Below, one piece after another: positions 297-9,959 of a stretch of 33,808 nucleotides of DNA. The stretch comes from Acidimicrobiales bacterium. Lineage in GTDB: Bacteria; Actinomycetota; Acidimicrobiia; Acidimicrobiales; RAAP-2. Position 1 is the stretch's first letter; the number at the start of each line of letters is the position of its first letter. The translations under genes and the position numbers were made by a program. The stretch covers positions 1 through 33,808 of the forward strand of contig JASHYA010000119.1 of the NCBI GenBank assembly GCA_030043315.1, in the 5' to 3' direction. The notes beneath the pieces were generated by a model. The model worked only from the letters and a program-made list of their open reading frames with translations, searched no databases and was not told the origin of the DNA.

Positions 297-1166
297 TCAG
301 GCGACGGACCGCCGAAGCTGCCCCGGCGTGACGCCGCGCTGGGCCAGCATCACCCGGTTCAGATGGCTCTGGTCGCTGAACCCGACGGCGAGCGCGATCC
401 TCGCCAGGGGTAGCCGCGTGCCCGCGATCAGCTCCTCGGCGCGCTGCAGCCTCCGCGTTCGTACGTACCTGTGTGGCGGTTCGCCGGTCTGCTGCCGGAA
501 CAGCCGCGTGAAGTGCGTGGGGCTCACGCCGGCAACGGCAGCAAGGTCGGTCACGGTGAGCGCCTGATCGAGATTGCAGTCGATGAAGTCGTAGACCTGT
601 TCGAGCTGGCGCCAAGACAGGGTGTCAGGTGCAGGGATCTGCCTCATGGTGGGGCGATCGCTGTAGTGCTCCAAGAGATGCGCCTCGAGCGCATACGCCA
701 GTGCGTCGGCGTACAGGGTGTCCCTGGACGCGCCCATCTCGAACGTGCGGGCCAGGTACCTCGCCAACTGGGCGAGCAGTGGATCATGCACACCCAGCGC
801 CGGGCAGAGCGTGACCGGGCAGGAACCGAGACGGTCGGAGTCGAGCGCCAATCCGATCCGGACGTCCTCACTCCGCTTATCCCACGCACGCTCCTCGGTG
901 TAGCCGGCTGGGTTCACCACGACGTGGCCAGGGGGAAGGAGGAAGGTGCGGACGCGACGCCCATCTCGCCAGTGCACGTTCAGTGCCGCGCTGTTGTGCA
1001 CGACGACCACGTGCAATCCCTGGGGTGCAGGAACCATGTCGGTGACGGGGTCGGCGATGGTGCGCTTGACGATCAGGCCTGGGAAGTCCGGCCCGCTCGT
1101 CGACAACACCGTCGCCCCTGCCTGTCTGTCGAGCTCGTCCCAGGCGGTCAGGGGATCGTCCGCCAT
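297..1166 (-). CDS. AraC-family transcriptional regulator (N-terminal sensor domain + C-terminal HTH)
   Basis: Translated C-terminus: LTVTDLAAVAGVSPTHFTRLFRQQTGEPPHRYVRTRRLQRAEELIAGTRLPLARIALAVGFSDQSHLNRVMLAQRGVTPGQLRR, a classical AraC double HTH. Start chosen at MADDPLTAW (ATG at 1166) within the longer 297..1532 ORF. Confidence 0.93.
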   Translation of the reverse strand: MADDPLTAWDELDRQAGATVLSTSGPDFPGLIVKRTIADPVTDMVPAPQGLHVVVVHNSAALNVHWRDGRRVRTFLLPPGHVVVNPAGYTEERAWDKRSEDVRIGLALDSDRLGSCPVTLCPALGVHDPLLAQLARYLARTFEMGASRDTLYADALAYALEAHLLEHYSDRPTMRQIPAPDTLSWRQLEQVYDFIDCNLDQALTVTDLAAVAGVSPTHFTRLFRQQTGEPPHRYVRTRRLQRAEELIAGTRLPLARIALAVGFSDQSHLNRVMLAQRGVTPGQLRRSVA

Positions 1167-1558
1167 GGCGCCCCCTCTCCTTCGAAGTTGACGGAGGCGC
1201 CGTTTGCCGACGCAATGAGCTTTTGATCCGAGAGGTCGTCGGTGGAAACCCAAACCCGTACGTCCTCGGTCCGAATATCCCTCGCATGTTGCTCGACATC
1301 GCCGGCCGGATTGAAGATGACGTGGCCCAGCAGCACAGGAGAGGGCCCGGTCCGTCCTTGCGCACCCCGTTGCAGGTCGACAGCTGCGCTGTTGTGCACG
1401 ACGACCGTGTGCCCGTTCGACGGCATGGCAGCCATGTCGGTGCTGCGCCCAGCGACGGCGTCCCTGACGACCGTTACCGGCACGCGCTCCCCGCCCGACG
1501 ACGACAGCCTCTTGGTTACCAGCCGCCTGCACTCTGCCGTGATCGAGCTGGTCCCCAT
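1148..1558 (-). CDS. Standalone paralog of the AraC N-terminal sensor domain (no HTH)
   Basis: HTVVVHNSAAVDLQRGAQG...LLGHVIFNPAGDVEQHARDIRTEDVRVWVSTDDL aligns by eye with HVVVVHNSAALNVHWRDGR...LPPGHVVVNPAGYTEERAWDKRSEDVRIGLALDSDRL of the downstream AraC. Stop overlaps the downstream start by 19 bp. Confidence 0.7.
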   Translation of the reverse strand: MGTSSITAECRRLVTKRLSSSGGERVPVTVVRDAVAGRSTDMAAMPSNGHTVVVHNSAAVDLQRGAQGRTGPSPVLLGHVIFNPAGDVEQHARDIRTEDVRVWVSTDDLSDQKLIASANGASVNFEGEGAPWRTIP

Positions 1559-1825
1559 CACCATCCCTCTTCTGGCGTTATACGCGAATTCTACTCCCGT
1601 GTAGTCCGCGCCGCCGAGCGGAATGACGGCCCGAGCTTCCTCCCCTTCTTCTCTCAAATTCGACTGCAACGGGCCTAGCAACGCCCCCTGCAGACTGCTT
1701 ACATATGTTGTGTAACGTTGGGACCGAGACCCCGGGTGCCGAGCGGGTCAGGCATCACGGGGCTGGGTCCAGCTCTGGCTCTCAAGTACCGGAGGCCGTC
1801 TGCTCGGCATCCTGCTCGTGCCTCG

Positions 1826-2260
1826 TCACGCCCCGGTCGCCTCGCCCGCGACTCGACCGAAGAACCGCTCGACTGCGGCGACGTCGTCGGAGTACATGGT
1901 GACTGTGTCAATAAGGTCGTCGCCGTCGAAACGGAGGAGGATGAGCACTCTCGTGCGCGCGGTCGCTGTCTGGGACTGCATGCGGACGTCGACCAGGACT
2001 GCCACGTGATTGACGCCGACCATGAGGTCGTCCTGCTTGAACGGATCGAAATGACCACCCGTCCGCTCGGCGATGGCCAGGAGGTGGCGAGCGACCTCGT
2101 CGCGCCCGGAGAAGTCGCCTGCGAGCGTGTGGTCGCCCGGCACCCGGTAGGTCACGTGCGGCGAGAGCAGCTCGAGCGTCTCGGTCAGGTCGCGCCTTCC
2201 CAGGTGATGGAGGAAGCGCTCCACCTTCGCAACCCTGCTCGGATCGCTCGGACTGCTCAT
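1826..2260 (-). CDS. SnoaL-like / NTF2-fold protein
   Basis: 144 aa; pattern ERFLHHLGRRDLTETLELLSPHVTYRVPG...FSGRDEVARHLL...VLILLRFDGDDLIDTVTMYSDD is typical of the SnoaL-like fold. Confidence 0.75.
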   Translation of the reverse strand: MSSPSDPSRVAKVERFLHHLGRRDLTETLELLSPHVTYRVPGDHTLAGDFSGRDEVARHLLAIAERTGGHFDPFKQDDLMVGVNHVAVLVDVRMQSQTATARTRVLILLRFDGDDLIDTVTMYSDDVAAVERFFGRVAGEATGA

Positions 2261-2318: not shown

Positions 2319-2685
2319 GCATGGTAAATGGGGCGACGCCACGGCGGAGACCTGTCTCACGAGTACGACAGCTCCGCCGTTCCGTGGTGACAACCGGGTG
2401 GCATCTCCGACGGATCCGAGAAGCGTTCCGGCGGAGAAGTCGATCGTGATGACGTGGTCACGTGGTCTCCTCGGTGAAATATAGGCCCCGGGGATGCCTC
2501 GAAACGCACCTCGCGTGGCCGCGCGACGCGTGCCGCTCGATCCGGCGCGGGCCGCGGCGGTCGCCTCTCGGGCGATCGACCAGGGCACAGGATCCCGTCC
2601 GTGGTGAACTCGGCAGCGTCGGGGCCCGGTCACCTCCCGCGGGCAATCTGGCGGGCTCGTGGGCAGTGCGATAGCACAGTGCGCA

Positions 2686-4119
2686 ATGTCCGAGAGCCAG
2701 GAGGCCGCGGTCGAACCCAGGGATAAGGGGACCGCCCTGCTCGTCACGCTGGCGATGGCCCAGTTCATGGTGGTGCTCGACTTCACGATCGTCAACGTGG
2801 CGCTCCCGTCGATCCAGCACGACATGCACGTCGCGACGACGACGCTGCAGTGGTTGGTGAGCGCGTATGCCGTCACCTTCGGCGGCTTCCTCCTCCTCGG
2901 CGGTCGGCTCGCCGACGTGTTCGGCCCTGCCCGGCTGTACCGGATCGGGCTCTGCATCTTCGTCCTCGCCAGCATCTCGGGAGGTTTGGCGGTCGAGCCC
3001 AAGCTGCTGCTCGCCTCGAGAGCCGTCCAGGGACTCGGCGCCTCGCTGCTCGCTCCGGCCGGCCTCTCCCTGCTCGTCACGAGTTGGACGGGCGAGCAGG
3101 AACGCAGCCACGCGCTCGGGGTGTACGGCGCCGTCGCCTCAGCCGGCTTCGCCGCGGGCGCAGTACTGGGAGGACTCCTCGTCGAAGTGACCTGGCGGCT
3201 CGTGTTCTTCGTGAACGTCCCCGTGGGCGCAGTCCTGCTGGTGATGTCGTGGCACCTGCTTCCCGCCGATCCACCGCGCCGGTCAGGGCGTCTCGACGTC
3301 CCCGGGGCGCTCATGGCGACCGCAGGGGTCGCCCTCCTCGTTCTCGGGGTGACGCTCGTCGGCGACACGCTCCGGCCGACGCAGCCGGCCATCGCCGTGG
3401 CCGCCGCGGCCATCCTGCTCGGCGCGTTCGTCGTCCGTGAGCGGAGAACCACCGCCCCCTTGCTCGATCTCAAGCTCCTGGAGGACCGGGGGATCCTCGG
3501 CGCCAACGAGTGCCTGCTCGCCTTCGGCGCCTGCAACGCGGCTGCCGTGCTCCTCATGACGCTCTACCTGCAGGAAGGTCGAGGCTTCTCGCCGCTCGTG
3601 ACCGGTCTCTGCATCATCCCGCAGGCGGTAGGGGCGTTCTCCCTCGCCGGTCCGGCCTCGAAGCTCGTTCCGGCGCTCGGTCCACGCCGTGCGCTCGCCC
3701 TGGGAATGTCGCTCGGCCTGTTGGCGCTGGCCGGCGCCGCCCTCAGTGTCTGGACCGGCACGCTCGCCGGGCTCCTCGTCGCACTTTTCGTCTTCGGGGT
3801 GTCCGCCCGGATCGTCCAGGTGGCGTCGGCGCTCGCAGGAACGCGCGGGCCGGTGGCCGCCCGGTCCGAGGGTTCGGCGAGCGCGGTGCTCACTGCGTCT
3901 CGTCAGGTCGGATCGGCGCTCGGCGTCGCCGTCGCGTCGGCCGTCCTCGTCACCGTCCATGCTCCAGAGCCGCACCGAACCACGGTGGCCATGCTCGTGG
4001 CCGCGTGCTTCGCCCTCGTCGGACTGGTCACGACGAAGGTCGTTCCGAGCGGACCCGGCCACCCGGTCGCGGCGCGGCTCGAGCACGCGTTCCACCGACA
4101 CGCCGGCGGCATGCCCTGA
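2686..4119 (+). CDS. MFS transporter, DHA2 (EmrB/QacA-like) drug exporter
   Basis: Translation MAQFMVVLDFTIVNVALPSIQHDMHVATTTLQWLVSAYAVTFGGFLLLGGRLADVFGPARLYRIGL matches DHA2 motifs; many TM segments. ATG at 2686 preferred to the GTG at 2659. Confidence 0.93.
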   Translation: MSESQEAAVEPRDKGTALLVTLAMAQFMVVLDFTIVNVALPSIQHDMHVATTTLQWLVSAYAVTFGGFLLLGGRLADVFGPARLYRIGLCIFVLASISGGLAVEPKLLLASRAVQGLGASLLAPAGLSLLVTSWTGEQERSHALGVYGAVASAGFAAGAVLGGLLVEVTWRLVFFVNVPVGAVLLVMSWHLLPADPPRRSGRLDVPGALMATAGVALLVLGVTLVGDTLRPTQPAIAVAAAAILLGAFVVRERRTTAPLLDLKLLEDRGILGANECLLAFGACNAAAVLLMTLYLQEGRGFSPLVTGLCIIPQAVGAFSLAGPASKLVPALGPRRALALGMSLGLLALAGAALSVWTGTLAGLLVALFVFGVSARIVQVASALAGTRGPVAARSEGSASAVLTASRQVGSALGVAVASAVLVTVHAPEPHRTTVAMLVAACFALVGLVTTKVVPSGPGHPVAARLEHAFHRHAGGMP

Positions 4120-4158
4120 GACTCTGATCCTGATCTCTCATCTCTTGATCAGCAGCTC

Positions 4159-4182
4159 GATCTCGATCTTGATCTTGATCTT
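4159..4182. repeat. Hexanucleotide microsatellite (GATCTY)4 in a GATC-rich patch
   Basis: gatctc gatctt gatctt gatctt read directly; flanking 4121-4160 is also rich in tgatc/ctctcatctc. Confidence 0.85.
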
Positions 4183-4229
4183 GGAGCACCGTCGAATCCG
4201 CGCACGCTCGGGTTCTACGCTTGGAGCCG

Positions 4230-6374: not shown

Positions 6375-7736
6375 CTACTGCCCGACCGGTCCGTCGGAGC
6401 CGGCCGGGTACTCCTCCATCGGTACGTGACCCGCTTCCCACCCATCGAGGATCGGCGTCACCACCCGCCAGGACTCCTCGGCCTCGTCGCCCCGTATCGA
6501 AAGGGTCGTGTCCCCGCTCAGCACGTTCAGCAACAGCCGGCCGTACGCGGGCAGCTCCGGCTCCTCCAGCTGCGCCTGCAGGACCAGTGGAACCAGGCTG
6601 ACCCCCACCCCCGGTCCGACGCCGGTCAGCTCGAGGGAGAGCTCCTGCGCCTCGAGGCCAAACCGAAGCCGGTTCGACGGCGGAAGCGCGTCCCCCGAGG
6701 GGAGGTGGGGCACCTGTCGGAAATGCACCACCACCTCCTTGCGATCTCGCGCCATGGCCTTTCCGGTCCGCACACGGAACGCCGTGTCCGCCCACCTCCA
6801 GCCCTCGAGCTCGAACACGACCTCGGCGAAGGTCTCGGTGCCGTGCGCGGGATCGACGCCGGACTCGTCGACATAGGCAGGGACCTGCCGGTCGCCGAGC
6901 CGACCGGCGAGGTAGCGGGCTCGTCGGGTGGCCGAGCGGACCCGAACCTCGTCGAAGGGGCGGATCGAGCGCAACACGTCCAGCTTTCGGTCGCGCAGGT
7001 CGCGTTCACCCAGGGTGATCGGCGGCTCCATCGCGACGAGACAGAGAATCTGCAGCAGGTGGTTCTGCACCATGTCCTTGAGCGCGCCCACCCCGTCGTA
7101 ATAGCCGGCCCTTCCTTCGAGGGCCAACGACTCCTCCCAGACGATCTCGACCTCATCGATGTGGGCACCGTTCCAGATCGGCTCGAGCACCCGGTTGGCC
7201 AGGCGCGTCCCGAGCAAGGTCTGCACGGTCGTCATCGCCAAGAAATGATCGACTCGGAAGATCTCCCCTTCGCTCATCACGCTGGCGAGCAACCGGTTGA
7301 GCTCGATCGCGCTCGCAAGATCCTCCCCGAAGGGCTTCTCGAGGACGACCCGGCTGCCGGTGGGCAAGCCGGCTGAATGCAGGGCACGGACCGCGAGCGG
7401 GAAGACGGACGGCGGAAGGGCGAGGTATGCGGCCACCGGCCCGTCGCCGGCGACGCACGCGGCGACCGTCGCGGCGTCGCCAAGGTCCAGCCGCCGGTAG
7501 TGCGACGAGCGGAGGACGAAGGTGCGCGCCCCGGCATCGACGTCCGCTGCCTCTTCCTCCAGCCACGCGGCGGCGTGCGTCCGGAACCGATCGTCGTCCC
7601 AGTCCTCCCGGGACGCTGCGATCAACTCGAAGCCATCTCCGAGGTACCCCCTGGCCCGGAGGGCCGCCAGACCGGGAAGCAGGTACCGGCCGGTGAGGTC
7701 GCCGGTGGCCCCCATGATGACCAGACGCTCGATCAC
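6375..7736 (-). CDS. zwf: Glucose-6-phosphate 1-dehydrogenase family protein (divergent subfamily)
   Basis: GATGDLTGRYLLPGLAAL (nucleotide-binding motif), RVDHFLAMTTVQTLLGTRLANRVLEPIWN, EGRAGYYDGVGALKDMVQNHLLQILCLVAMEPP. Confidence 0.85.
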   Translation of the reverse strand: MIERLVIMGATGDLTGRYLLPGLAALRARGYLGDGFELIAASREDWDDDRFRTHAAAWLEEEAADVDAGARTFVLRSSHYRRLDLGDAATVAACVAGDGPVAAYLALPPSVFPLAVRALHSAGLPTGSRVVLEKPFGEDLASAIELNRLLASVMSEGEIFRVDHFLAMTTVQTLLGTRLANRVLEPIWNGAHIDEVEIVWEESLALEGRAGYYDGVGALKDMVQNHLLQILCLVAMEPPITLGERDLRDRKLDVLRSIRPFDEVRVRSATRRARYLAGRLGDRQVPAYVDESGVDPAHGTETFAEVVFELEGWRWADTAFRVRTGKAMARDRKEVVVHFRQVPHLPSGDALPPSNRLRFGLEAQELSLELTGVGPGVGVSLVPLVLQAQLEEPELPAYGRLLLNVLSGDTTLSIRGDEAEESWRVVTPILDGWEAGHVPMEEYPAGSDGPVGQ

Positions 7737-7985
7737 GTCGCCCGCGCCTCGGGCAGGTGTGGGCGGCGTGCTCCCCCTCGATCTGGAAGATGCAACCCCG
7801 GCGGATCGCAGGTCACGATCAACGAATCGATCCTCCCGTCACGCGGCCGGCTCGGTCTTCCAGCCAGCTTGGTCTTGTCCGCGCTGCAGCCATCGGAACT
7901 GTACACATCGGAAGCGAGCGCACCGTCGGGAGGTCGCCGGACGAACCGCCGACGCGGTCCTCGCGAGCTGGCGCCCCGACGAGCG

Positions 7986-9959
7986 TCACAGCCCGTGCGG
8001 ACCGTCGCTGTCCGAGGTCGATGCCGCCTCGCGGGTCGCCACCTCGTCGACCTGAATCAGGTGCATCACCGCGTTGATCAGCGCGAGGTGGGAGAAGGCC
8101 TGGGGGAAGTTGCCGAGGTGCTGTCCGCTGTGAGGATCGATCTCTTCGGCGTAGAGCCGAAGGCGGCTGGCAGAGGCGAGCAACTTCGTGCACAGCGAAC
8201 GGGCGCGGCCCACCTCACCGATCTGCACCAGAGCCGATACCAACCAGAACGAACAGATGGTGAACGTCCCTTCCTCACCGGAGAAGCCGTCGTCGGTCTC
8301 CTCCACTCGATAGCGAAGCACGAACTCTTCCTCGGTCAGCTCGTCGGCGATCGCCATCACCGTGGCCCGCACTCGCGAATCCTCCGGGGGCAGGAAGCCG
8401 AGGAGCGGAATCAACAAGACGGAGGCGTCCAGCGCGGTCGTCTCGTAGTGCTGGCAGAACACGCCCCGCTCGTCGACTCCCCGCTCGCACACGTCGGCGT
8501 GGATCACGTCGGCAGCGGATCGCCAGCGAACGGCGTCGTCTTTGGCTTCCCGCAATTCGGCGAGCTTGGCGCCACGGTCCAGGGCCACCCAGCACAACAC
8601 CTTGGAGGCAGTGAAGTGCTTGGCCGGCCCCCTCACCTCCCACAGCCCTTGATCGGGCTCGCGCCAGTGGGCGAGCGCGGCGTCCACCTGGTGCCTGATC
8701 ATCTGCCAGCGCCGCTCGTCCAAGCGCTCACGAAAGCTGGTGTGCAGGTAGACCGAATCGAGGAGGACCCCCCACACGTCGTGCTGACGTTGGTCCCATG
8801 CAGCGTTGCCCACCCGAACCGGCCGGGCCCCCTTGTACCCGGAGAGGTGGTCGAGGGTGTACTCGGTCAACTCCCTCTCGCCCCCGATCCCGTACATGAT
8901 CTGGAGATCGGGCTCTTCCTCGGCTAGATCTGCCAGGAAATAGTAGAAATCGTTCGCTTCCCGGTCGAAGCCCAACGTGTAGAGACCCCACAGCATGAAC
9001 GTCGAGTCGCGCAACCACGAATACCGGTAGTCGTAGTTGCGTTCACCGCCGGGCGTTTCCGGCAACGAGGTGGTGGCGGCGGCGACCAGGGCTCCCGTCG
9101 GCGAATAGATCAGGCCCTTGAGCGTCAATACCGACCGCTGCAGGAAGGGTCGCCACGGGTGGTCCGGGAAGTTCCCACGGCTGATCCACTCGTGCCAGAA
9201 GTCCCCGGTGACGGTGAGCCGACGGTGCGCCTCCTCGAAGCTCTGCGGGGGCTCGGCGTCGCCCCACGACAACGCGCAGTACACCTGCTCACCTGCGCGC
9301 AGCCGACGGCGCGCGATGGCCCGGGGCCCCTCGAAGCCGAGGTTCAGGCTCGTCGTGAGGCGAACTGCCGGCCCGTCGTCTCCGGGGGTGACCTCGGCGT
9401 CACCGTAACCCTCCCCGAGGTGGGACCACGACCCGAGCCGACGGCCGTAGTCGAAGGCTGGTTCGCACTCGAGCAGGAAGTCCATCGTCCCGCTCAGGCA
9501 CCTGACGGTGCGCAGCAGCACGTGCTCGGCGGCATGATCGGTGGGAACCCGCCAGTGGTGCGATGAGCGGGACGCCCCGTACCGCCATGGCCCGATCAGC
9601 AAGGCATCCCGCACCAGCACCCAGCCCGTCGACGTGACCCACGTCGTCTCGAGGATCATCGTCCCCGGCAAGTAGCGCTGATCGACCGGCACGTCGAGGT
9701 CCATCGGGCTCAATCGGAAGATCCCGGCGCTCCGGTCGAGAACGGCGGCGAAAATGCTCGGCCCGTCCATCCTCGGCAGGCACATCCACTCCACGTTCCC
9801 GTTGGGCGCCACGAGCGCGCAGACCTCGCAGTCGGACAGGAACCCGTACTCCTCGATCGGAGGGAACGGACTGCCACCGAGAGTCGAACGGGAGAGGGCG
9901 GAGGAGGATCCAAGGGGCCCGAACGCAGGATTCGTCACCGCAGTCACCGTCCCTTGCAC
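7986..9959 (-). CDS. Glycoside hydrolase family 15 (glucoamylase/trehalase-like)
   Basis: PPIEEYGFLSDCEVCALVAPNGNVEWMCLPRMDGPSIFAAVLD; NYDYRYSWLRDSTFMLWGLYTLGF; GLWEVRG; LYAEEIDPHSGQHLGNFPQAFSHLALINAV. Confidence 0.95.
   Translation of the reverse strand: MQGTVTAVTNPAFGPLGSSSALSRSTLGGSPFPPIEEYGFLSDCEVCALVAPNGNVEWMCLPRMDGPSIFAAVLDRSAGIFRLSPMDLDVPVDQRYLPGTMILETTWVTSTGWVLVRDALLIGPWRYGASRSSHHWRVPTDHAAEHVLLRTVRCLSGTMDFLLECEPAFDYGRRLGSWSHLGEGYGDAEVTPGDDGPAVRLTTSLNLGFEGPRAIARRRLRAGEQVYCALSWGDAEPPQSFEEAHRRLTVTGDFWHEWISRGNFPDHPWRPFLQRSVLTLKGLIYSPTGALVAAATTSLPETPGGERNYDYRYSWLRDSTFMLWGLYTLGFDREANDFYYFLADLAEEEPDLQIMYGIGGERELTEYTLDHLSGYKGARPVRVGNAAWDQRQHDVWGVLLDSVYLHTSFRERLDERRWQMIRHQVDAALAHWREPDQGLWEVRGPAKHFTASKVLCWVALDRGAKLAELREAKDDAVRWRSAADVIHADVCERGVDERGVFCQHYETTALDASVLLIPLLGFLPPEDSRVRATVMAIADELTEEEFVLRYRVEETDDGFSGEEGTFTICSFWLVSALVQIGEVGRARSLCTKLLASASRLRLYAEEIDPHSGQHLGNFPQAFSHLALINAVMHLIQVDEVATREAASTSDSDGPHGL

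Follow-up and report, generated by a model that had tools for sequence, protein, structure and literature searches.

Does a short open reading frame (ORF) lying directly ahead of an AraC-family regulator gene, and overlapping its start, encode a small protein that acts on its neighbour, or is it what remains of a duplication? The question arises near one end of a 33,808-nucleotide contig of an Acidimicrobiales bacterium, the whole of which was analysed here as the window. The short ORF occupies positions 1148-1558 on the minus strand (ATG start, 136 aa plus stop) and the regulator gene positions 297-1166 on the same strand (289 aa), with an overlap of 19 nt. Two in-frame starts are available to the short ORF, ATG 1564 and ATG 1558, the latter being better placed, with the plausible ribosome-binding site (RBS) AGAGGG six bases upstream. 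A scan for promoters and terminators across positions 1-2800 returned no sites.

The downstream gene is typical of its family: its product matched HTH_18 (PF12833, 6.2e-24, residues 208-286) and PF00165 (1.9e-17), which places it among the AraC-family regulators, with a putative sensor region at about residues 1-180 and the AraC helix-turn-helix (HTH) at about 198-286. Its structure model was poor (mean pLDDT 45.8), and the helices predicted at residues 129-143 and 148-167 come from this low-confidence model. The AraC frame is open upstream as far as GTG 1532 (297-1532, minus strand, 411 aa), and an overlong 411-aa call by an automatic gene caller could mask the short ORF. The short ORF gave no HTH match with either Pfam or NCBIfam and lacks the C-terminal double-HTH DNA-binding domain that defines AraC-family regulators. 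A structure model computed from its sequence alone, without an alignment, had a mean pLDDT of 31.9 and no confident residue, and is uninformative either way.

Searching the whole source genome with the short protein returned only itself and the N-terminal region of the AraC protein (42% identity over the 90 residues 18-107, E=4.7e-14), while a third match had E=0.03 and contained stops. Both copies carry the motifs TDM, H-VVVHNSAA, GHV--NPAG and EDVR, and counted from ATG 1564 the two proteins align from their starts across 109 codons (positions 1238-1564, minus strand) at 58% nucleotide identity and about 35-41% protein identity. The similarity runs out around residue 107-109, in a sensor region some 180 residues long, so that a complete N-terminal ligand-binding and dimerisation domain is not present, and any counterpart of the full protein's helices at 129-167 is missing. 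The remaining C-terminal tail (1148-1237, minus strand, 29 residues plus stop) is unrelated to the regulator protein: it consists of the AraC gene's leader, RBS and first codons read in another frame, and comparison with regulator codons 105-200 gave no trace of the missing part (P=0.56). Similarity between the leaders of the two copies, as expected of a 5' tandem duplication, was not detected (P=0.45). Judged by these alignments, the short ORF is a genuine but truncated tandem copy that corresponds to the first third of the AraC gene.

The similarity, the lack of an HTH and the 19-nt overlap had all been noted in a preliminary description of the locus and are borne out, whereas its term 'standalone sensor domain' was too generous for 107-109 of about 180 residues followed by leader sequence. 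Its suggestion that the short protein heterodimerises with or titrates the regulator found no support. The dimerising helices of AraC-family proteins normally lie in the C-terminal half of the sensor region, and the absence of this half from the short ORF weakens the case for heterodimerisation.

The pattern of change between the copies bears most directly on selection. Differences are spread almost evenly over codon positions 1, 2 and 3 (0.44, 0.38 and 0.40), with NG86 estimates of 0.57 for dN and 0.63 for dS, a dN/dS near 1 that marks the loss of purifying selection in a decaying duplicate; an MFS orthologue pair with a similar third-position divergence (0.41) had a dN of just 0.13. As controls, 105-codon windows with 33-50% protein identity were taken from MFS paralogs of the same genus and from AraC-family pairs. 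A third-position divergence of 0.40 or less occurred in 0.9% of the MFS and 0.8% of the AraC windows, a figure of about 1% that is rough because the control windows overlap. Third-position differences averaged 0.53-0.54 in the controls against 0.40 between the copies, and identical residues shared the same codon in a fraction of 0.66 between the copies compared with 0.47-0.48 in the controls. Since synonymous change is unsaturated while protein change is large, the short protein would have been little constrained through much of its history. Compared with distant relatives, which are not mutually independent, the short copy scored below the full gene in 12 of 13 cases, and at sites where the copies differ it matched the family exactly 63 times against 124 for the full gene; the site-wise relative-rate test alone was not significant (P=0.08). 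This asymmetry in the scores points to the short copy as the less constrained of the two. Taken together, the even change over codon positions, the place among the lowest 1% or so of control windows and the lower scores against relatives favour the decaying duplicate that the preliminary description had listed among its options.

The reading frame itself has remained open, with neither a stop nor an indel in the 109 aligned codons, and truncation is the only damage found where disabling stops or frameshifts would mark a decaying duplicate. In a neutral simulation with 0.3 substitutions per site the probability of encountering no stop was 0.22, and with indels at 3-5% per substitution the probability of encountering no indel was 0.01-0.055. 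GC content at the three codon positions (0.65, 0.53 and 0.78) is still coding-like, the residues that the short copy has retained tend weakly towards family-conserved positions (P about 0.035), and altered residues are slightly more family-like than expected by chance (P=0.043). The open frame is weak evidence of coding because three of the six frames are stop-free over this stretch and the AraC frame is itself open to 1532. Such signs of retained constraint fit an earlier period of selection, perhaps on a copy that still had its full length, and a later relaxation. They are compatible as well with a functional short protein.

Compensated frameshifts within the short ORF were also considered, as other frames give GDQLDHGR and VRKDG, which resemble WDELDRQ and WRDG. 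A gapped DNA alignment was better at first, but a null that kept the in-frame matches produced the same gain (36 against 34.9). Set against shuffled codons, the frameshift segments had initially given P=0.005, a misleading value, as leftover in-frame homology inflates this test. Against the null, P ranged from 0.15 to 0.6, and compensated frameshifts were consequently rejected as unproven.

Relatives of the short ORF were sought widely, and none was found among 172 genomes of the family, in samples of the genus, order, class and phylum, in plasmids and viral contigs, or in two peptide-pattern scans of 84,980 species genomes. The full regulator had no match within the family either, while its sensor region gave weak single-sequence matches (E about 1e-4 to 1e-5) in the order and phylum samples, mainly in one distant genus, which a profile search also recovered. 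The pair of short ORF and AraC gene is thus a singleton by sequence in the genomes searched. The preliminary description had named a neutral substitution pattern, or relatives with a lost or frameshifted short ORF, as grounds against a functional pair: the pattern is indeed close to neutral, but relatives cannot decide the matter, since neither gene occurs in any of them.

Upstream on the same strand lies a SnoaL-like gene (1826-2260, minus strand, PF12680 2.6e-8), a possible transcriptional neighbour of the AraC pair. Like the pair, it had no relative at E<=1e-8 among 12 further genomes of the genus, and all three genes are possibly one acquired block. Beyond it lies an MFS transporter gene (2659-4119, plus strand). 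One other genome of the genus carries an 80% orthologue (L024, 10616-12124), whose neighbours in the sequenced part of that relative differ from those seen here. Short degenerate GATCTTGATCTC-type repeats lie at 4126-4186, between the MFS gene and an SMP-30-like gene. Further along, a 516-aa frame at 7377-8927 on the plus strand, opposite the genes for G6PD and a glycoside hydrolase of family 15, had no Pfam match and is probably a spurious antisense frame.

I put the probability at roughly two in three that the short ORF represents a partial paralog in decay, its frame still open under relaxed selection, and that the intact AraC protein regulates alone. A tandem duplication would have placed a copy of the first 109 or so AraC codons ahead of the gene, whether its 5' part and leader were duplicated in a single event or a full tandem copy later lost its 3' part. 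Missing both its HTH and the sensor's C-terminal half, the copy would then have read into the intact gene's leader and stopped just inside that gene. The copy, formerly constrained, would have gone on to change in a near-neutral manner and, if expressed at all, would presumably have lost its function, while the intact AraC gene stayed constrained and would act as a regulator on its own. Most likely, the short ORF is an ordinary evolutionary leftover.

The gapless, stop-free 109 codons, the weak bias to family-conserved residues and the plausible RBS ahead of ATG 1558 would also suit a small, rapidly diverging protein with a working role: bound to the regulator or to its ligand, it would tune the regulator as a dominant-negative or decoy. 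An HTH-less interfering partner in the LuxR family, CerN with CerM, offers a precedent (PMC11655674). The near-neutral codon pattern, the end of homology ahead of the C-terminal part of the sensor and the want of a retained relative in any genome set searched make such a protein unlikely. More specifically, it is quite doubtful that a fast-evolving half-sensor paralog is translated from the overlapping upstream ORF and, serving as a decoy or as a partner in folding, determines how the regulator responds.

Alternatively, the protein could be irrelevant and translation of the short ORF, as an upstream overlapping ORF or leader, could control that of the regulator, whose RBS lies within the short ORF and whose start it overlaps. 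Overlaps typical of translational coupling are 1-4 nt, which the 19 nt found here exceed, and the regulator has its own strong predicted RBS, AAGGAGAGGGGG (1171-1182, minus strand, read from the sequence). The leaders of the copies show no detectable similarity, and I regard control of this kind, including the coupling that the preliminary description suggested from the overlap, as improbable. An assembly or binning artefact would be conceivable in a fragmented metagenome assembly (348 contigs, estimated completeness 59%) as a chimeric or collapsed sequence, but copies that differ at 42% of bases are not a misassembled repeat, and the adjoining MFS gene has its orthologue in the same genus, which makes an artefact highly improbable.

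Among known systems, the ANR (AraC negative regulators) are small proteins that modulate AraC regulators in Gram-negative pathogens, and in the abstracts consulted they are not characterised as partial AraC copies (PMC5570504). CerN is an HTH-less antagonist of the full regulator CerM and resembles the short ORF as a paralog without a DNA-binding domain; it belongs to another family, whereas the short ORF keeps only a sensor part and evolves in a near-neutral manner (PMC11655674). With the downstream AraC-family regulator the short ORF has in common the first 109 or so N-terminal residues, and it has neither the HTH nor the sensor's C-terminal half. Truncated tandem duplicates and young pseudogenes are similar in that a partial 5' copy adjoins the intact gene and substitutions are near-neutral, but differ in that the short ORF has kept an open frame with no gap in 109 codons. 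An open frame beside its parent gene in a GC-rich genome can mimic a functional mini-regulator, and here comparison of codon positions with control paralogs reveals little selection on the encoded protein; should the protein act after all, the locus would exemplify the tuning of an AraC regulator by its own fragment.
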